From an uncultured Enterobacterales bacterium (GTDB taxonomy: Bacteria; Pseudomonadota; Gammaproteobacteria; Enterobacterales; Psychrobiaceae), in contig CALJMY010000166.1 of NCBI GenBank assembly GCA_937981905.1, positions 1-41,326 on the forward strand: 41,326 bases of DNA, read 5' to 3'. Below, in pieces: positions 25,973-40,909 of the stretch (positions within the stretch are counted from its first letter, which is position 1; every line of letters begins with the position of its first letter). Both the position numbers and the translations under genes were made by a program. Under the pieces are notes generated by a model, which was not told the origin of the DNA, made no database searches, and saw only the letters and a list, made by a program, of their open reading frames with translations.

Positions 25973-26335
25973 ATGGCAAAGATCTTAATAGTTGATGACT
26001 CTGTTTCAATTAGAAACATGGTTACATTCACTCTTAAACAGCAAGATTACGAAACAGTAGAAGCCTGTGATGGCCAAGATGGCTTAGAAAAAGCTAAAAA
26101 TGAACGTTTTGATTTAATCATTACTGATGTAAACATGCCCGGCATAGATGGTATTGATTTATGTAAAGAAATTAGACAATTACCAGCGTTTAAATTTACG
26201 CCAATTTTAATGTTAACCACTGAAAGTTCGCCAGAAATGAAACAACGCGGCAAGGAAGCTGGGGCTACTGGATGGCTGGTGAAACCATTTAATCCTGAAA
26301 AATTATTGTTAACCATCAAACGTGTCATAAGGTAA
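25973..26335 (+). CDS. cheY: CheY-type single-domain response regulator
   Basis: KILIVDDSVSIRNMV, LIITDVNMPGIDGIDL, LMLTTESS, GWLVKPFNPE: conserved DD/D/T/K all present. Confidence 0.95.
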   Translation: MAKILIVDDSVSIRNMVTFTLKQQDYETVEACDGQDGLEKAKNERFDLIITDVNMPGIDGIDLCKEIRQLPAFKFTPILMLTTESSPEMKQRGKEAGATGWLVKPFNPEKLLLTIKRVIR

Positions 26336-26344
26336 GCATCGTAT

Positions 26345-28417
26345 ATGAGTATTGACCTGTCGCAATTTATTCCAACATTCTTAGACGAAAGTTTCGAAGG
26401 ATTGGCACTCATGGAATCAAGCTTGCTCAATATTGAACAAGGCGATGTCGATATTATTAATGCTATTTTTCGTACTGCACATTCAATTAAAGGCGGTGCT
26501 GGTACGTTTGGTTTTGTGCACGTAACAGACTTTACTCATGAAGTTGAGACATTACTTGATGAAATGCGAGATGGTCGACGTGATATTAATAAAGATGACA
26601 CAAACCTATTATTACAATCAATAGACTGTATTAAGTTATTGATTGAAGCAGCACGTGATGGGATTGAATGCGATAACCTCAATGTAGTAAACGTTAAAAA
26701 AGCACTTGAAAAGACGCTAAAAATAGAAAGTATTACCAATTCGAATATGGTTGAAAACACTATTGAACCTAAAGGCGTTGGCCAATGGGCAATCAATTTT
26801 AAACCTCATTTAGACATGCTAAAAACAGGTAATGATGCCATTAATATTATTAATGCATTAACTGACTTAGGCACTGTTACTCAAACTATCGATCATACAA
26901 ATATTCCAGAATTATCATCATTAAACGGTGAAGACTGTTATTTGTCATGGCAACTTACACTTAATTCAAATTGTGCACGTTCAGACATCGATGAAATATT
27001 TGAATGGGTAGAGGATGAATGTGATTTAGTAATAACGTTTGTAGAAACATCTAACAACGCTATTAATAATATTACTGAGCAACCAACCAATAGCGACATT
27101 CAAACGGCAACCGAAATAAATAATAAATCACTGCCCAATGTTAAAGCTACTCCAGAAATAGCCACTAATAATACATCAATGTCAGTTTTTGAAAGTGCTT
27201 CTATTCGTGTCGGCATAGATAAAGTTGATACTTTGATGAACCGTGTTGGTGAGCTTGTTATTACTCAAGCAATGTTAAAACAAATTGGTAGTGATTTATT
27301 AAATCATGATCATCAATTAGCCGCTAAGCTCATTGATGGATTAGCACAGTTAGAAAGTAATACCCGAGAATTACAAGAAGATGTCATGCGAATACGCATG
27401 TTACCTGTGAGTTTTGTCTTCAATCGATTTCCTCGTATGGTTTATGATATTAGCGCTAAATTAAATAAGAAAATTGAGTTGAAGTTTTCCGGTGAAAATA
27501 CCGAAATAGATAAAACGGTGATGGAAAAAATAGGTGACCCACTTATTCATTTAGTCAGAAACTCTTTAGATCATGGTATAGAAACTCCCCAAGAGCGTAT
27601 AACAATGGGCAAACCCGAAACAGGGCTCGTTCATTTAAAAGCTTATCATCAAGGCGGTTATATAATTATTGATATTATTGATGATGGTCGTGGATTAAAT
27701 AGTGCTGTTATTAAGCAAAAAGCATTAGAAAAAGGGCTAATCACTAATGAGCAAGAGCTTAGCGAGCAAGATATTAATGAATTAATTTTCACGCCCGGAT
27801 TTTCCACATCTCAAGAAATTAATGATTTATCTGGGCGCGGCGTAGGCATGGACGTTGTTAGGCGAAATATAGAATCACTAGGCGGTCACGTTACCGTTGC
27901 ATCAATATCTGGACAGGGTTCTACATTTTCAGTCAGTCTACCGTTAACACTAGCTATTCTCGATGGTCAATTAATTAAAGTGGCTAATGAAACTTATATC
28001 GTGCCACTTATTTCTATCGTCGAATCGGCTCAAATCAATAATAAACAAGTCAAAGCCGTTGCTGGGCGTTCAAGTGTTTATTTATTTAGAGAAGAATATA
28101 TTCCTATCTACTCAATAAAACGATTATTTTCTTTGCCACAAACAGCAGAAAAGTATGAAGAAGAAATGATAGTCATCGTTGAAAACAATGGTCAAAAATA
28201 CGCATTATTAGTCGATGAATTATTAGACCAACAACAGTTTGTTTTAAAGAACCTCGATACTAATTATATGGCTGTAGATGGCATTGCTGGCGCTACTATT
28301 TTGGGGAACGGTAATGTTGCATTAATTATTGATATCCGAGGTGTCATTCATTTAAATCAATTCATAAAAGATGATGAATTAGATGTTGTTGATTATACCG
28401 CCGAGGGTGCAGCATGA
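26345..28417 (+). CDS. cheA: Chemotaxis histidine kinase CheA
   Basis: Hpt domain (FRTAHSIKGGAGTFGF), P3 (RVGELVITQAML), HATPase (LVRNSLDHGIE, DDGRGLN, LSGRGVGMDVVRRNIESLGG), C-terminal CheW-like domain. Confidence 0.97.
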   Translation: MSIDLSQFIPTFLDESFEGLALMESSLLNIEQGDVDIINAIFRTAHSIKGGAGTFGFVHVTDFTHEVETLLDEMRDGRRDINKDDTNLLLQSIDCIKLLIEAARDGIECDNLNVVNVKKALEKTLKIESITNSNMVENTIEPKGVGQWAINFKPHLDMLKTGNDAINIINALTDLGTVTQTIDHTNIPELSSLNGEDCYLSWQLTLNSNCARSDIDEIFEWVEDECDLVITFVETSNNAINNITEQPTNSDIQTATEINNKSLPNVKATPEIATNNTSMSVFESASIRVGIDKVDTLMNRVGELVITQAMLKQIGSDLLNHDHQLAAKLIDGLAQLESNTRELQEDVMRIRMLPVSFVFNRFPRMVYDISAKLNKKIELKFSGENTEIDKTVMEKIGDPLIHLVRNSLDHGIETPQERITMGKPETGLVHLKAYHQGGYIIIDIIDDGRGLNSAVIKQKALEKGLITNEQELSEQDINELIFTPGFSTSQEINDLSGRGVGMDVVRRNIESLGGHVTVASISGQGSTFSVSLPLTLAILDGQLIKVANETYIVPLISIVESAQINNKQVKAVAGRSSVYLFREEYIPIYSIKRLFSLPQTAEKYEEEMIVIVENNGQKYALLVDELLDQQQFVLKNLDTNYMAVDGIAGATILGNGNVALIIDIRGVIHLNQFIKDDELDVVDYTAEGAA

Positions 28418-28914
28418 TTGATGAAGAGATTATAGATATTGATGAACAAGGCCAGCAATTTTTATCATTTATCTTGGCAGGTGAAGAATATGCAATTGAT
28501 ATTTTAAAGGTTCAAGAACTTAGAGAGTGGAGCCAAACGACGCTCGTCCCTAATAGTCCGAATTATATCGATGGCGTAATGAATTTAAGGGGACAAATAA
28601 TCCCTGTGATTAATCTTAGAAAACGATTTAATTTACCTAATGACCATACTTTGAATAATCGTATTGTCATTGTTCTAAATATTAATGATGGCACACGTTT
28701 CAGATTAATGGGATTGCTGGTGGACTCTTTTTCACAAACTTATGATATTAATGAAAAAGACATCAAACCAGCGCCCAGTAAAATTAGTATTATTGATGAT
28801 GAATTTATAATTGGGTTATCTACTATAGACAATAAAATGCTTATTTTATTAGACGTTAACCAACTATTGTCATCTAAAGAATTGTCACTACAAAAGACAA
28901 ACCATGTCGCTTAA
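28414..28914 (+). CDS. cheW: CheW adaptor protein (first copy)
   Basis: QFLSFILAGEEYAIDILKVQELREWSQTTLVPNSPNYIDGVMNLRGQIIPVINLRKRF. Confidence 0.95.
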   Translation: MIDEEIIDIDEQGQQFLSFILAGEEYAIDILKVQELREWSQTTLVPNSPNYIDGVMNLRGQIIPVINLRKRFNLPNDHTLNNRIVIVLNINDGTRFRLMGLLVDSFSQTYDINEKDIKPAPSKISIIDDEFIIGLSTIDNKMLILLDVNQLLSSKELSLQKTNHVA

Positions 28915-28941: not shown

Positions 28942-31227
28942 ATGCGCAACAACATACCAGTAACTGATTGTCGTATTTCATTGAAACCAGGTGAAGACTT
29001 AGTTACTAAAACCGATTTACAGGGACGGATCACATACGTCAACCCTGCTTTCATTGAAGTTAGCGGTTTCTCAGAGAAAGAACTCGTAGGTGAAAATCAC
29101 AATGTTGTTCGCCATCCAGATATGCCAGAAGCAGTCTTTAAAGATCTATGGCAGACATTAGCGCTTGGTCGTCCGTGGGTTGGAGTGATTAAAAATCGAT
29201 GTAAAAATGGAGACTATTATTGGGTGACGGCTAATGTCACGCCATTAATGAAAAATGGTCGTTTGGCTGAGTATATGTCAGTAAGGTCTAATCCTTCTGA
29301 AAAACAAGTAGAAATGACAGAACTATTGTATGAAAAGCTCAAATCTGAAGAAGTTGTATTACCCGGTCCAAATAGTATTTTATCAAATAATTACCAAGCA
29401 CAAATTAACAAATGGTTAATGAGTAGTGTTGTAGTCTCTGTCGTTATTGGCGTGCCTTTATGTTTTTCAGCGATACCAGCGTTAGATGTACTTGGCCCGG
29501 TAGCTGGTTTTGGAGTCTTAGCATTTGGTGTTAATCGTGTCGTAAAACGTACTATTTTATCTGGGATTAATAATTCTATTAATGAATTACAGAAAATTAC
29601 AGAAGGAGACTATACCCGAGATATTTCTGTAACTGAAGAAGGTGAGTCTGGTAAATTACTTCGCATGGTTAAGTCTATTCAAATCAAATTAGGTTTTGAA
29701 GTCAATGACGCAAAACAAATAGCACAACGCTCAGAACGTATTAAAGTGGCGTTAGACAACGTTACCTCTTGTGTGATGATGGCAGACAATAATGGCAATA
29801 TTATTTACGTCAATAATGCCATTAATAAGATGTTACTAGACGCTGAAAGCGACATTAAACAAGACCTACCTGAATTTAGTGTGAAGCAATTAATAGGAAT
29901 GAAAATTGAATCTTTTTATAAAGATTTAACTGACCAACCAGATTTAATTGAATCATTGAAACATCCTTTTAATACACAATTAGTGATTGGGCCAAGGTCT
30001 TTTAATGTATCTGCTGCGCCCGTTATCGACGAATCTAATAATAGATTAGGGGTTGTTTTAGAATGGAGCGATGTTACTCAGCAATTAGCTGCAGAAGCTG
30101 ATGTTGAAAAACTAATTCAAAATGCAGCCGTTGGTATCTTAAATTCACGCCTTAACGCTAAAGAATATAGCGGCTTTACTGGTAATGTGGCTCGCGGCAT
30201 GAACGAAATGCTTGATTCAATTGTTACTCCCATTGAAGAAGTTAAACGTGTCGTATCGGATTTAGCTAATGGAAAATTAAGCTCTAGAATGGAAGGCCAT
30301 TTTAAAGGCACATTCAACGACTTAGATAATTCATTGCAAATAGCCATGAAAAAACTTGAAGAAACGGTAGGTGAAATACGCACCAACAGTGGAACAATTG
30401 CTTCTGGTGCTGAAGAAATATCTAAAGGTAATAATACATTAAGTACTCGAACTGAATCACAAGCAGCCAGCCTTGAGGAAACTGCCGCAAGTATGGAAGA
30501 AATGACAGCCACTGTTAAACAAAACGCTGACAATGCTTCACAAGCTAATTTACTCGCTGAAAATGCAAAAATACTCGCTGAAAATGGCGGCATCATTTCA
30601 GAAAAAGTTGTACGTTCGATGAGTGAAATAAGCCGTTCGAGCAAAAAAATTGCTGAAATCATTAGTGTTATTGATGAGATAGCATTTCAAACAAATTTAT
30701 TAGCACTTAACGCCGCTGTTGAGGCAGCACGTGCCGGTGATCAAGGACGCGGTTTTGCCGTTGTTGCAGCCGAGGTAAGAAATTTAGCTCAGCGAAGTGC
30801 TAGTTCAGCCAAAGAAATTAAAGGCTTGATTAGTGACAGTGTCGACAAAGTTGACGAAGGTGGTCGTTTTGTTGATGAATCAGGTAAAGCATTAACCGAA
30901 ATAGTAACAGCCATTCATGAAGTATCTAGTATTGTAAATAAAATTTCGTTAGCTAGTACTGAGCAATCAATAGGTATTAATCAAGTTAATGTTGCGATTA
31001 CCAATATGGATAAAGGCACACAACAAAATGCTGAATTGGTTGAAGAAGTGGCTGCCGCATCAGAAAGTATGGAAGAGCAAGCGGTTCAATTAAGACAACT
31101 AATGCGCTTCTTTTCAACTGACAACAATGACATTCACAATCAATCGACTAACTCGCCACAAGCGAATAAAAATCTCAAAAACAATCAAGAAAATACCACT
31201 CATGATACTCACTGGGAAGAGTTCTAA
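28942..31227 (+). CDS. Aer-like methyl-accepting chemotaxis protein (PAS - TM - HAMP - PAS - MCP signaling domain) ending in HWEEF
   Basis: N-terminal PAS ([38 protein letters not shown]), hydrophobic segment, second PAS-like region ([23 protein letters not shown]), MCP hairpin ([40 protein letters not shown]), C-terminal THWEEF. Confidence 0.93.
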
Positions 31228-31236
31228 GGCACTATC

Positions 31237-32106
31237 ATGAGTCAAGACAAGCGAGCTTCAGAACAACTTAAACTAACGATTGAAAGTTATCATCGAGAGT
31301 TCGTTTACAATGATCACGATTTTGAACAAGTGAAGACACGAATTTATAATTATGCAGGTATAGATTTAGCTGATCATAAAAAAGACCTTGTTTACAACAG
31401 ATTGATAAAGCGCGTTAGAGACTTAGCGCTAAATTCTTTTGATGAGTATTTAACAGTACTTGATAATTCGTCAGAAGAAATTGCGTACTTTATAAATGCC
31501 ATGACGACGAATCTAACGTCGTTTTATAGAGAACCTCATCATTTTGAATTTTTAAGTGAGACATATATACCATCGCTTTTTCAACAAGGGCAACGCAGCT
31601 TACGAATATGGTCTTCAGCTTGTTCCGTAGGAGAAGAAGCTTACAGTATTGCTATTAGCTTATTAGAAGCAAATATCGATATTAATGAATGGGATATAAA
31701 AATATTAGCGACAGACATTAATACTGATGTTTTAAAGACCGCTAAAACAGGTATCTATTCATTAGAACGTATTGAGAACTTGAGTTTAATCCGTAAAAAA
31801 CTTGGCTTTATGCGCGGTAAAAATGAAAATATTAATAAGGTAATAGTTAAAGAAAATTTGAAAAAACTCATCGACTTTCAACACTCTAATCTTATTGATA
31901 TATGGAATATTGACGAGCCGTTAGATGTTATTTTTTGCCGAAACGTCATGATCTATTTTGACAAAGAAACGCAACACACTTTATTAGATCGAATGGCTAA
32001 ATTATTAAAACCAGGCGGTATTTTATTTATTGGACATTCAGAATCACCGACACAGGCAATGAAATATTTTAAATCCTTAGGTCGTACGACGTATCAAAAA
32101 CTATAA
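31237..32106 (+). CDS. cheR: Chemotaxis methyltransferase CheR
   Basis: AMTTNLTSFYREPHHFEFL, RIWSSACSVGEEAYSIAI, DVIFCRNVMIYFDKETQ, GGILFIGHSES. Confidence 0.96.
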   Translation: MSQDKRASEQLKLTIESYHREFVYNDHDFEQVKTRIYNYAGIDLADHKKDLVYNRLIKRVRDLALNSFDEYLTVLDNSSEEIAYFINAMTTNLTSFYREPHHFEFLSETYIPSLFQQGQRSLRIWSSACSVGEEAYSIAISLLEANIDINEWDIKILATDINTDVLKTAKTGIYSLERIENLSLIRKKLGFMRGKNENINKVIVKENLKKLIDFQHSNLIDIWNIDEPLDVIFCRNVMIYFDKETQHTLLDRMAKLLKPGGILFIGHSESPTQAMKYFKSLGRTTYQKL

Positions 32107-32131
32107 ATTTTGTTCATGAACTTAATGCGTA

Positions 32132-33232
32132 ATGCTAAGAAATAAAGATGTTAATTACTATGACAAGGAAGATATGACGTTAATCAAAGTACTCATTGTT
32201 GATGACTCAAAATTAATTCGTGATATTTTAAGTGAAATAATAACCAGTTTCTCTGACCTTACCGTCGTAGGAACAGCTAAGGATGCTTATGAAGCTCGTT
32301 CACTCATTAAAGAATTTTCTCCTGATGTCATAACACTTGATGTAGAAATGCCAAAAATGGATGGTATTACTTTTTTGAAAAATTTGATGAGGTTAAGGCC
32401 AATGCCAGTCATTATGTTATCAACATTGACATCTCAAGGAGAAAAAACAACGTTAGAGGCACTTGAACAAGGCGCTATTGATTTTATCTCAAAGCCGCGT
32501 TCTAGAGATTTATTGGACGATTTATCTGAATTTAGCGAATTATTACATCAAAAAATAAAACTCGCCGCAATGATTCAACTGCCAATGAAACCTATTATAA
32601 GCAATAGTAATGTTGAGTTATTTAACTCGAGTGAATTAGATCTAACTCATCAAATTCTTGCGTTAGGCGCATCGACTGGCGGGACGGCAGCATTAAAGGA
32701 TATTTTGTGTTCATTCCCCATTAATTCACCACCAATTGTGATTACGCAGCATATTCCAGCAAGCTTTAGTCAGCGATTTGCAAAGCGTTTAAATACACAT
32801 TGTGAACTAAGAGTACATGAAGCAAAAGAAGGGCAAGTATTAAAACCGGGCAATGTATATATAGCGCCCGGAGGGTTTCACTTAACTATTATTTATCTGA
32901 ACAGTCAATATGTGTGTCAATTATCAGATGAATTAGCCCATAACGGCCACAAACCATCGGTTGATATAATGTTTGATTCTTTAAATAAATTATCAAAAGC
33001 TAATGTTCACGCAGGGTTATTAACAGGAATGGGTAACGATGGTGCTAATGGACTATTAGCATTAAAACACAATGGCCATTACACGATAGTTCAAGATGAA
33101 CAATCGAGTTTAATTTGGGGAATGCCGGGTTCTGCTTACAAGCTTGGTGCACATGTAGACGATGTGCCATTGAATAAAATAGCTAAAAAATTACTTAATA
33201 ATATTAGCAAAACAGCTCATCAAATAAAATAA
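32132..33232 (+). CDS. cheB: Chemotaxis methylesterase CheB (REC + methylesterase); start probably at 32174 (MTLIKVLIVDDSK)
   Basis: REC motifs plus LGASTGGTAALKDIL, ITQHIPASFSQRFAKRL, YIAPGGFHL, LTGMGNDGANGLLALK. Confidence 0.96.
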   Translation: MLRNKDVNYYDKEDMTLIKVLIVDDSKLIRDILSEIITSFSDLTVVGTAKDAYEARSLIKEFSPDVITLDVEMPKMDGITFLKNLMRLRPMPVIMLSTLTSQGEKTTLEALEQGAIDFISKPRSRDLLDDLSEFSELLHQKIKLAAMIQLPMKPIISNSNVELFNSSELDLTHQILALGASTGGTAALKDILCSFPINSPPIVITQHIPASFSQRFAKRLNTHCELRVHEAKEGQVLKPGNVYIAPGGFHLTIIYLNSQYVCQLSDELAHNGHKPSVDIMFDSLNKLSKANVHAGLLTGMGNDGANGLLALKHNGHYTIVQDEQSSLIWGMPGSAYKLGAHVDDVPLNKIAKKLLNNISKTAHQIK

Positions 33233-33241
33233 GGACGTTAT

Positions 33242-34012
33242 ATGAACCAATTACATAAATGGTATTTCTCAGCTCAAATGTCGCTTTTATTCCTCATTAT
33301 GTCGGCGGCTTACCTTCATTGGCCTGTCGCTATTATTATCACTAGCTGTACCACTTTAATTGTTATTTCTATTACTGGCTATATCACTAAGAACAGTGAT
33401 ACTTTTGAAACTAGTGTTCAGGGAAATTACACTCATATCAATAAAAAGCATAAAAACGCGGTTAAAGAACCTAATAAAGAGTCTAATAACGAGATGGAAA
33501 AATCATTATCTGACATGTTTTTTACGTTAGAAAAAACATTCAATAATGAACGTTCCATTATTAATAATGAAATAAATAGAACAAAAAAATTATTAAATGA
33601 AGCCGTAATTGGGATGAACGAATCGTTTTATAAAATCAAAAAAATTAATGATAAGCAATCTAGTATTTTATTTAATTTAGTGCAGGGCACTAGCGATTCG
33701 GTAGAAGAAAACCTTAACAATTTATCTGAAATGAGTAATGAAATGGACAATGCGGTATACCATATTGTTATGTCATTGCAGTTTGAAGATATTACATCGC
33801 AAGCATTAGACTCTATATCTGCTAATATCGATCAGTTTGATATCATTAGCCAGAAAATCAATAGTGCGAGTTATAGTGATGAATCGATGTTGTCTAAATT
33901 TAATAAAATTAAAGATATTTGTGAATTAGTTAATGAAAAAACTAACAATATTAATCAGCAACGAACGGTGTCGCAAATGTCGATGAAAGAAGGTGAAATA
34001 GAGTTATTTTAA
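33242..34012 (+). CDS. Membrane-anchored coiled-coil protein with a CheZ-like FEDITSQ motif
   Basis: Two hydrophobic N-terminal segments (MSLLFLIMSAAYLHWPVAIIITSCTTLIVISITGYI), helical cytoplasmic region, VYHIVMSLQFEDITSQALDSI resembling the CheZ active-site helix, C-terminus EGEIELF. Immediately follows cheB. Confidence 0.6.
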   Translation: MNQLHKWYFSAQMSLLFLIMSAAYLHWPVAIIITSCTTLIVISITGYITKNSDTFETSVQGNYTHINKKHKNAVKEPNKESNNEMEKSLSDMFFTLEKTFNNERSIINNEINRTKKLLNEAVIGMNESFYKIKKINDKQSSILFNLVQGTSDSVEENLNNLSEMSNEMDNAVYHIVMSLQFEDITSQALDSISANIDQFDIISQKINSASYSDESMLSKFNKIKDICELVNEKTNNINQQRTVSQMSMKEGEIELF

Positions 34013-34030
34013 GTATTAATACATTAACCG

Positions 34031-34078
34031 ATAGCACTACCTATAAATAGAACTACCTATCAATAGCGCTACTTTATA
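34031..34078. repeat. Three tandem 16-bp units
   Basis: ATAGCACTACCTATAA / ATAGAACTACCTATCA / ATAGCGCTACTTTATA, exact 16-bp period, between convergent genes. Confidence 0.8.
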
Positions 34079-34081
34079 AGG

Positions 34082-34588
34082 TTATATCGCTTGAGTAATT
34101 AGCTCAATGTGTTGTTCACTGAGCAACTTATTAACATCTAATAATAAGACTAATCGTTGATCTACCTCAACCAGTCCATTTATATATTCACTATCTATAA
34201 AGCCACCAATGGTCGGTTTTTCTCTCAAATTCTCTTCATCAATAGCATGTGTATCTGATACTGAATCAACCACAATACCAATAATATTAGTAACGCCATT
34301 TTTATGTATATTAAGTAATATGACGACTGTCGTTGGGCCATAATTAAGAGGCGCTAAGGAGAAACGAATACGTAAATCTATAATGGGAATAATACGACCA
34401 CGTAAATTTAAAACACCCTTAACATAATCGGGAACACCGGGAATAGTGGTTGCGTTTGACCATCCTCGGATTTCATTCACTGTTAGAATATCAACACCAA
34501 ATTCTTCATTATTTAATGAAAAAGTCAGAATTTGTTTAGTGTCAGATATTGTCCATGTATCTTGTGAACTATCTATTTGCGATTGCAT
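34082..34588 (-). CDS. cheW: CheW adaptor protein (second copy)
   Basis: KQILTFSLNNEEFGVDILTVNEIRGWSNATTIPGVPDYVKGVLNLRGRIIPIIDLRIRF. Confidence 0.95.
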   Translation of the reverse strand: MQSQIDSSQDTWTISDTKQILTFSLNNEEFGVDILTVNEIRGWSNATTIPGVPDYVKGVLNLRGRIIPIIDLRIRFSLAPLNYGPTTVVILLNIHKNGVTNIIGIVVDSVSDTHAIDEENLREKPTIGGFIDSEYINGLVEVDQRLVLLLDVNKLLSEQHIELITQAI

Positions 34589-34724
34589 AATTTCTTCCCT
34601 GTAAATTCATAATCTATTGAATCATAAAAATAGGATAAATCTCAATATTTAGTATTGTTTTTATTAAATAAACCTGTCTATTATATTAATTAATAAGTTA
34701 ATGTTCATCTACAAGGATAGAGAT

Positions 34725-35717
34725 ATGGCGGAGATAAAGTCAGTTTTAATCGTGGACGATAGTCGATTAACACGAATGATCATTATCAAAATAATAAAAA
34801 CGTATTTTGAAAACTGGACTATTACTGAAGCCGCTAATATTTCACAAGCGTTAGAGGGCGCACAAAACACAACATTTGACTTCATTTCATTAGATCATAA
34901 TATGCCAGATGGTACAGGTTATGACATTCTCCCTACACTCAAAAAATTACAACCTTCTGCTCATATAGGTATTTTTACCGCTAATATGCAAACGGTAGTC
35001 AAACAACGCTTTGAAAAACTCGGTGCTACTTTTTATGGTAAGCCTATTAACGAAGCAATGATCCTCAATTTTCTTAACCAAGAACAAACAAACAATCCAT
35101 CGACCATTTTTACTCAAGAACATTGCGATACATTAAGTGAGTTATTCAATATTGGTATGGGCCGAGCAGCAGTATCATTAAGCGAAATGGTTGATGCTGA
35201 AGTTGAGCTAACTATTCCATCATTACAAGCCGTCGATTTTAATGCAGCGCTGTCCATTTTAAACAATTTATCGCCCGGAAGTGTAAATGCTGTTGAACAA
35301 TGTTTTCATGGAAAATTCTCTGGTAATGCTTTTCTACTTTTCAACAACGAATCAAGCTTAGCGCTTATTCATAGTATTTTGGGGGAAGAAGGTTGGAGCA
35401 ATGAATTAGGCGAAATGGAACAAGAAGCGCTAAAAGAAATTTCTAATATTATTCTCAACACGTGTTTTGGTTGTATTTCTGATGTTTTAGAGTGTGAACT
35501 CGAAAGTAGCATTCCCGACCTTATTACAGGAAATATCAATGATGTATTTGATATTGAACGAATGAACGTTGGCACAGATCCACTTGTGCTCACACTATCT
35601 ATGACATTTAGTTTACCGAGTAAAGAAATTAGAGGGCAGGTAAGTTTAATTATGACAAGTGAATCGATTAAGCGGTTAATCAATGAACTTGAACGCTTCA
35701 CCAAACAAAGTATTTAA
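34725..35717 (+). CDS. Response regulator fused to a CheC-like phosphatase domain (REC-CheC)
   Basis: REC: VLIVDDSRLTRM, FISLDHNMPDGTGYD, IFTAN, FYGKPI. CheC-like: two ExxN helices, TLSELFNIGMGRAAVSLSEM and EALKEISNIILNTCFG. AAGGA Shine-Dalgarno precedes the 34725 ATG. Confidence 0.88.
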   Translation: MAEIKSVLIVDDSRLTRMIIIKIIKTYFENWTITEAANISQALEGAQNTTFDFISLDHNMPDGTGYDILPTLKKLQPSAHIGIFTANMQTVVKQRFEKLGATFYGKPINEAMILNFLNQEQTNNPSTIFTQEHCDTLSELFNIGMGRAAVSLSEMVDAEVELTIPSLQAVDFNAALSILNNLSPGSVNAVEQCFHGKFSGNAFLLFNNESSLALIHSILGEEGWSNELGEMEQEALKEISNIILNTCFGCISDVLECELESSIPDLITGNINDVFDIERMNVGTDPLVLTLSMTFSLPSKEIRGQVSLIMTSESIKRLINELERFTKQSI

Positions 35718-39331: not shown

Positions 39332-40909
39332 TTAAGGTAAAAGTTTTTTTAAACACAGGCCTAATTTAAACCCTAAGAACGGAGGAACAGCATTTCCAAC
39401 TTGTGTATATTGAGGTACTTCAAATTTTCTCATTTGCCCCCCCGTAGTGATTTTTGAGCGAAAAACGAAATTATCAGGAAAAGATTGTATTCTTGCCATT
39501 TCACGCACCGTTAGTACTCGAAGTTCATGTTCGTCATAGTGGCAAGCGTCATCAGGTATTGATAATGCTGCTGGTGCAGGGGCGTCAGCGTTTAATGCTT
39601 TTTGTGTTTGTTTTTTCGTTGGATGCGCTTTTAGGTAGTCAACAAACGTGTTTTTGCTTGTAAAACCTAATAATTTCCCATCAAGCTGTAGGTAACTATA
39701 TGCTTTACAAGCAGCCCATACATCTTCAGCTAAATCATCAGTATTACCTTTGAGAATATCAAAAACGGCTTGTGTTATTTTACGCTCATTTATTGTTTGT
39801 AATACTTGGTATAACCGAAAACGACGTTGAACTAAGGCACTATTATTCCGTAAATCATGATTAGTTAAAGAACTACGCAGAGGTAAATAGTCAAATGTGG
39901 TATTTAACGTTTTTATAAATTCTGAAGGTTCAGCTGGGTTATTCATTTTTAAGTCATCTAGAGCATCACGAACAGTTACTTGCTTACCATTGACTAAATG
40001 GTTTAAAAAGGAATCTTCAAACAATTTATGATTACTAGGCTTGGTGGCGTCCAAATAATCTAAATGCCCGAATGGCAATTCATCACCTTGTTCTTGTACT
40101 AAATGATAAAACGCTAATGACGGCGCAAACACTTGTGAATCAGCACTATTAGCATCAAAGTCTTGTGATATTAAATTATAGTGATCAAACCTGACGGCAA
40201 TCATAATAAACCTAGGGCGGTTTTGTGCAATACCTGCCAACTTAGCATTAATGTGTAAACAAACTGGAACGTAACCAATAGAGGCGAATACTTTGGCTAC
40301 TTCATACCAAGCATGAAAACTGTTACCTTCATCGTCTTTAAATGCTCGTAATATACCGCTGACATTCTCAAGCATCGCAATTTTTGGTTGGGTGTGCTTT
40401 ACAAATTTAGCAAACTCCCAGGGTAATGTGTTTTTATCACAATCAAGCTTACGAAGGCCTGCCATACTAAAACTTTGACAAGGTGGTCCGCCAGAAACGA
40501 GATCAAGCCCTCGTGTTGAACCAAATGACGTTTTTAATTGGTTTATTAATTCGTCATTGCTTTCTAACAATCGATTTAATTCTATAATGCTGCCAACGAC
40601 TAACTTACCTTGTAATTCTGATATGTTTTTAGGTATGTCGCATGTGCCTTTTTCATCAAAAGCGGGGAATGTAAATGGATTTTCTCGTAAGCGTGGTTTC
40701 AGTTCAGCGAAGTTACTATTAAGCCAAAATGTATTTTTAGCTTTCTGCTCTTTATTCGCGAGTTCTTCCAAGTTTTCATTAAAGAAGTTGTAGGCAAATG
40801 ATTCAGCCGCCATTGGCGAAAGCTCATTGGCCATTGTCAATTCAAAACCTGTTTGCTTTAAGCCTAAAGATAAGCCCCCACAGCCAGAAAACAACTCAAT
40901 ATGATTCAC
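39332..40909 (-). CDS. C5-cytosine-specific DNA methyltransferase (Dcm-like)
   Basis: Motif I IELFSGCGGLSLGLKQTGFE, motif IV SGGPPCQSFSMAG, motif VI MLENVSGIL, motif VIII IAQNRPRFIMIAVR, motifs IX/X LTVREMARIQSFPDNF and QVGNAVPPFLG. Confidence 0.96.
   Translation of the reverse strand: MNHIELFSGCGGLSLGLKQTGFELTMANELSPMAAESFAYNFFNENLEELANKEQKAKNTFWLNSNFAELKPRLRENPFTFPAFDEKGTCDIPKNISELQGKLVVGSIIELNRLLESNDELINQLKTSFGSTRGLDLVSGGPPCQSFSMAGLRKLDCDKNTLPWEFAKFVKHTQPKIAMLENVSGILRAFKDDEGNSFHAWYEVAKVFASIGYVPVCLHINAKLAGIAQNRPRFIMIAVRFDHYNLISQDFDANSADSQVFAPSLAFYHLVQEQGDELPFGHLDYLDATKPSNHKLFEDSFLNHLVNGKQVTVRDALDDLKMNNPAEPSEFIKTLNTTFDYLPLRSSLTNHDLRNNSALVQRRFRLYQVLQTINERKITQAVFDILKGNTDDLAEDVWAACKAYSYLQLDGKLLGFTSKNTFVDYLKAHPTKKQTQKALNADAPAPAALSIPDDACHYDEHELRVLTVREMARIQSFPDNFVFRSKITTGGQMRKFEVPQYTQVGNAVPPFLGFKLGLCLKKLLP

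Follow-up and report, generated by a model that had tools for sequence, protein, structure and literature searches.

A McpA-like receptor without its signalling hairpin

The window, that is the whole stretch of 41,326 nucleotides that was analysed, encodes on its forward strand (33242–34012) a 256-residue McpA-like (F7) chemoreceptor of the CttP/PA0180, VCA1088 and SO_2117 kind, in which the MCP signalling hairpin has been deleted in frame. From its sequence we consider it somewhat probable that this membrane-tethered protein docks CheY~P through its C-terminal tail and dephosphorylates it at the membrane with an aspartate/glutamine pair (D183/Q187).

The reading frame starts with an ATG located 9 nucleotides after the stop codon of cheB, with an AAGGA ribosome site about 8 nucleotides upstream. 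Pfam assignments gave the gene order cheY-cheA-cheW-aer2-cheR-cheB-ORF 33242–34012, all on the forward strand. The products are CheY, the presumed substrate (25973–26335; Response_reg, 6e-32), CheA (26345–28417; Hpt, H-kinase_dim, HATPase_c and CheW domains), CheW (28414–28914), an Aer2-like soluble receptor with a PAS-PAS-HAMP-MCP arrangement (28942–31227), CheR (31237–32106) and CheB (32132–33232). Downstream of the ORF are a reverse-strand CheW gene, a gene encoding a fusion of a REC domain with a CheC/CheX-type phosphatase domain carrying two E-x2-N sites (34701–35717, forward strand; Response_reg, CheX 1e-9, CheC 6e-5), and a gene encoding a PAS-GGDEF-EAL protein. The REC-CheC/CheX gene is also found in F7 clusters of the same genus. 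Near the window end, a reverse-strand ORF with a GPPCQSFS motif (39332–40909) resembles DNA cytosine methyltransferases.

The cheD gene, usually placed between cheR and cheB, is absent from this cluster, and no CheD was detected in the genome (82.7% complete). The STAS and PP2C genes present in most relatives' clusters are also absent from the window F7 cluster. The places concerned are 32106–32132 and 34012–34082. With CheD gone from the genome and STAS and PP2C gone from the cluster, the window F7 cluster is a reduced one.

Pfam and NCBIfam scans returned no model that names the window protein and no CheZ match at E ≤1, and a plasmid search gave no match. The earlier note had indeed expected the protein to be hard to find by simple similarity search. 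Among 296 genomes of the order, 23 gave matches, the strongest being in the same genus, where they often came in two pieces. The homologs are open frames of about 390–440 residues; those of the same genus, with about 400–440 residues, have retained the MCP hairpin. Their alignment shows an N-terminal membrane segment, a helix, the MCP signalling hairpin, LQFED-x3-Q, a linker and an SQxxMDEGE[VI]ELF tail. CheR and CheB are encoded upstream in nearly all of the 80 named loci, and 53 of the 80 also have cheD, STAS and PP2C genes. In the published order of stage-1 F7 clusters, the McpA-like receptor (CttP/PA0180, VCA1088) comes after cheB (PMC7184735), and the window gene lies directly 3′ of cheB. 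Its EIELF end fits the x-[VI]-x2-F C-terminus described for these receptors, with family tails reading GE[VI]ELF, and contains no CheR pentapeptide. The C-terminus of McpA-like receptors was described as strikingly conserved, lacking the CheR pentapeptide and having V at the second position as in EVELF (PMC7184735). The window protein thus shares with McpA-like F7 receptors the post-cheB position, the N-terminal membrane helices, the tail and the D-x3-Q helix. It differs from them by the MCP hairpin (PF00015), for which it gave no match whereas 47 of 52 relatives did, and by a cluster devoid of cheD, STAS and PP2C. The earlier note had read the gene as a membrane-anchored CheZ; the membrane anchor and the CheZ-type D-x3-Q helix are retained from that reading, while the identity becomes that of a hairpin-deleted McpA-like receptor. 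It follows that the conserved D and Q and the tail belong to the whole receptor family.

No heptad class fits the McpA-like receptors, the F7 array forms without them, and their role was left unclear, the conserved tail nevertheless being presented as important (PMC7184735). Published localisation places the McpA-like receptor in the F6 array (PMC7184735). In Shewanella, McpA clusters and forms complexes with the F6 CheA3, and when overproduced it increases swimming as ordinary receptors do (PMC9855816). No experiments on VCA1088 are reported in PMC7534058.

Extent and recurrence of the hairpin deletion

AlphaFold2 predicted two N-terminal helices (3–24 and 29–59, pLDDT mostly above 90) which include the two hydrophobic membrane segments (residues ~3–48; 33248–33385). 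In the monomer model, the cytoplasmic part forms a single hairpin (pLDDT mostly 85–93) made of an N-terminal arm, residues 79–148 (33476–33685), and a C-terminal arm, residues 151–210 (33692–33871), which bears the D-x3-Q site. Alignment with full-length relatives places the junction, at which about 150 residues corresponding to the MCP signalling hairpin are missing, at 33680–33691. Measured against the full-length relative L032, the missing part begins 84 residues ahead of the MCP turn and ends 68 residues beyond it; if a non-helical insert preceding the tip is left aside, it is nearly symmetric about this turn. Because of this near symmetry the two leftover arms are able to pair into a shorter hairpin, as AlphaFold2 predicts.

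Forms without an intact hairpin were also found in L047 (identical to L027), in Neptunomonas japonica (L080) and in Colwellia (L066 and L075, the latter retaining part of the post-tip arm), as well as among shorter and more distant relatives (L142–L145, L148). The aspartate, the glutamine and the tail are present in all of them. A tree of CheB placed the window sequence as the sister group of a clade of full-length forms (support 99/97), with the other hairpin-less cases at different positions. Such a scattered distribution is most simply explained by separate losses. A shared origin of the loss in the window and in L047 was rejected, since the window branches with full-length relatives. In one genome bin, ERR2094174 bin.37, a full-length McpA-like gene (L035) coexists with a hairpin-less gene that lies in another F7 cluster (L047).

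Conservation of the D-x3-Q site and of the tail

The window protein contains VYHIVMSLQFEDITSQALDSI, in which the stretch LQFEDITSQ (33776–33802) carries D183 (codon 33788–33790) and Q187 (codon 33800–33802), at the positions equivalent to D143 and Q147 of CheZ according to family conservation and to the hhalign register with CheZ. The DITSQ helix, the two N-terminal hydrophobic segments and the EGEIELF C-terminal end described in the earlier note are all present in the sequence and, for the helices, in the AlphaFold2 model.

A search over the collected loci with a C-terminal profile gave 142 distinct members. D and Q are both kept in 141 of them, the exception (L146) having R for Q, and the tail shows the same degree of conservation. 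Because this profile includes the motif itself and the filter is therefore circular, the collection was repeated with an alignment (A3) ending before the motif. In this motif-free set, D, Q and a C-terminal LF were found in 29/29 readable members, one further locus being excluded. D and Q are thus conserved across homologs, whereas a lack of such conservation would have refuted the reading of the note. The T of the D-x-T-x-Q arrangement it had singled out is not part of the signature, since EDIISQ, EDIVRQ and GDINHQ also occur, and what the members share is LQ[FV]x-D-x3-Q. Neither LQFxD nor a comparable post-tip site was present in any of the 18 MCP frames of the same genome. A lone D-x-T-x-Q in a helical protein of 256 residues would mean little, so that it is the family-wide conservation of D and Q that points to more than chance.

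Mean column identity reaches 0.82 at residues 177–189 and 0.73 at residues 241–256, the conserved tail (33962–34009). It is 0.32–0.33 in the linker before the tail and 0.32–0.40 in the remaining cytoplasmic part. These two conserved stretches are exactly the ones that resemble the working parts of CheZ. On the N-terminal arm, all members have E110 and F129, and R113 is nearly invariant; by the antiparallel register of the model, E110/R113 would face approximately Q187/D183. The window protein matches 21 of the 23 highly conserved positions as compared to 47 of the 155 others.

Relationship with CheZ

The E. coli CheZ structure (PDB 1KMI) carries KIMMAQDFQDLTGQVI, with D143 and Q147 counted on an alignment with the genome's own CheZ; the CheZ helix given in the earlier note was nearly right. 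Using hhalign, the McpA C-terminal profile was aligned with a diverse CheZ set at P=2.3e-4 with a probability of 44%, D and Q being in register with D143 and Q147. Control alignments gave P=0.08 for canonical MCP C-terminal helices and P=0.004 for the McpA tip. With an HMM built from the diverse CheZ set, the window protein scored only E=0.076, the best control MCP being at 0.59. Pfam CheZ matched three MCP-like relatives (L213, 4e-5; L152, 8e-4; L211, 1.7e-3), the best of which, L213, reached 24 bits as compared to a cut-off of 30.7. In the alignment of L213 with our CheZ HMM, FQDLTGQ lies over FQDRTSQ. The profile comparison suggested in the note placed D and Q in the CheZ register, though at a modest probability and below the Pfam cut-off. 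Searches of the PDB gave no support: with the window model, Foldseek retrieved from the PDB generic coiled coils, none at E ≤0.001 and without 1KMI among the best 50, and the family C-terminal profile retrieved from PDB sequences repeat and coiled-coil noise without 1KMI.

Spacings were also compared. The distance from D to the C-terminus has a family median of 74 residues (IQR 73–78) as compared to 76 (72–80) in CheZ. The hairpin of E. coli CheZ spans residues 35–168 (PMC7750401), so that its helix ends at D143+25. In the hairpin-deleted models, D is 33–39 residues from the turn and the helix ends 24–27 residues past D (window, D183 at 33.5 residues and end at D+27; L080, also a single hairpin, D175 at 38.5 residues and end at D+24), turn positions being crude guesses except in these two models.

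The window protein resembles CheZ (PF04344) by an F-x-D-x3-Q site on the C-terminal arm of a helical hairpin, followed by a linker and an acidic/hydrophobic C-terminal peptide, with D about 71–76 residues from the C-terminus. In contrast to CheZ, it is membrane anchored, belongs to an F7 and not to an F6 cluster, ends with GEIELF and not LGF, and stays below the Pfam and NCBIfam CheZ cut-offs. In CheZ, two hairpins make up a four-helix bundle; the monomer model of the window protein shows one helical hairpin. The CheZ of alpha-proteobacteria (Azorhizobium type) come closer in having a shorter hairpin and a tail, SQDDIDxLF, close to SQxxMxEGEIELF, but they are soluble and recognised by PF04344. 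The note had already seen a resemblance of the C-terminus to the CheZ docking peptide, and an acidic/hydrophobic tail is conserved across the family. CheC, CheX and FliY phosphatases catalyse the reaction proposed here for the window protein with an unrelated fold and E-x2-N sites. Overall, common ancestry of the C-terminal half with CheZ appears likely from these comparisons, whereas the case for full CheZ homology of the window protein is suggestive only. No paper linking McpA-like receptors to CheZ was found in the open-access literature. The window protein was not retained as the organism's true CheZ, because an ordinary, full CheZ is encoded on another contig of the same genome (PF04344, E=1.4e-64).

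Proposed function and alternatives

In the mechanism that we favour, the membrane hairpin would anchor a cytoplasmic helical hairpin, presumably dimeric. D183 and Q187 on the C-terminal arm would form a CheZ-type catalytic pair, Q187 placing the attacking water and D183 helping to position CheY~P. The GEIELF peptide, a putative response-regulator docking peptide carried by a flexible linker, would bind the regulator of the same cluster in the manner of the CheZ C-terminal helix. An F7-type system would thereby have a CheY~P phosphatase tethered to the membrane. In full-length relatives, the same module would lie under the MCP hairpin, which, in view of the published localisation, would keep the protein at the pole, within the F6 array. 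With the MCP hairpin gone, array coupling should be lost in the window protein while the module stays.

In favour of such a phosphatase, published F7 stage 1–2 clusters contain cheY and no cheZ (PMC7184735), and V. cholerae CheY4, from the F7 che cluster III, shows no binding to FliM, its binding to CheZ being predicted to be inefficient (PMC3774744). Against it, Shewanella McpA behaves like an ordinary receptor in its F6 CheA3 complexes and in its effect on swimming, and the McpA tip control already reached P=0.004 in the comparison that gave CheZ its 44%. Moreover, given the CheZ of the genome and the REC-CheC/CheX protein of the cluster, a further phosphatase is not strictly needed. The REC-CheC/CheX protein, possibly a second CheY~P phosphatase or a self-regulating regulator, also makes it harder to claim that the window protein acts as the sole phosphatase. 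Dependence on CheD was judged unlikely, since the tail is still conserved although CheD is absent from the genome, at 82.7% completeness.

The tail and the helix might instead hold the phosphorylated response regulator at the membrane as a sink or scaffold, with no dephosphorylation. This we regard as unlikely. Conservation of the tail and motif requires a partner but not catalysis, and the R that replaces Q in L146 fits this idea; however, binding alone is hard to reconcile with D and Q being invariant at the CheZ spacing, because the three intervening residues vary freely. An improbable alternative, to which we give similar weight, is that the C-terminal part docks another partner, such as CheB, CheA/CheW, the STAS/PP2C branch or the REC-CheC/CheX protein, and that the CheZ likeness is that of a convergent coiled coil. 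Receptor C-terminal peptides usually bind CheR or CheB (PMC7698151), and STAS and PP2C genes usually lie 3′ of the family gene. Yet the P. aeruginosa McpA tail binds none of four CheRs (cited in PMC7184735), and the tail, D and Q persist in the window protein though cheD, STAS and PP2C are gone from its cluster. Docking elsewhere also leaves the D-x3-Q register with CheZ and the matching spacing unexplained.

The protein could also be a decaying receptor, left without function while its F7 cluster shrinks, or the deletion could stem from misassembly of the metagenome bin. The missing CheD, STAS and PP2C genes and the long CheB branch (0.67) would agree with decay. We nevertheless hold this to be quite improbable. 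The frame is open, in phase and provided with a ribosome site, conserved positions have been kept far better than the others (21/23 versus 47/155), other lineages show the same loss with the same parts retained, and the deletion re-closes a clean hairpin. The reading of the window protein as a probable membrane-tethered CheY~P phosphatase is the one that we favour.

A possible superfamily of CheZ-like proteins

Two further types of proteins were observed. Soluble proteins of about 185–190 residues (L106:3891–4454, L147:2938–3516 and L159:2431–2979) carry FQFYD[RK]xxQ and a C-terminal VELF or IELF, and no family model names them; the L106 gene is directly 5′ of cheR in an F7 cluster. MCP-like proteins with LQFQDRTSQ, an EITFF or DITFF tail and weak Pfam CheZ matches are encoded next to cheA (L211:1497–2663, L212:1567–2730 and L213:1490–2623). 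The latter are possible counterparts of VC1394, a receptor of F9 systems.

F7 systems, from which the E. coli chemotaxis system descends, are widespread in gammaproteobacteria. We tentatively propose, as a possibility that we would not yet put at even chances, that McpA-like receptors, their hairpin-deleted forms, VC1394-like receptors and the small soluble FQFYDxxxQ...VELF proteins make up a widespread CheZ-like CheY~P phosphatase superfamily. Its members would take the place of the phosphatase that is missing from F7, and perhaps F9, systems; most would be built into a chemoreceptor, with the receptor array controlling where the phosphatase sits or how active it is, and the window protein would have been freed from this array. 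If true, a CheZ-like phosphatase and docking module would explain the conserved tail, the absence of cheZ from F7 clusters and how F6 and F7 systems are physically connected. As natural deletion experiments, the window protein and the comparable forms of other lineages separate the phosphatase-like half from the receptor half, and offer a small protein for testing it.
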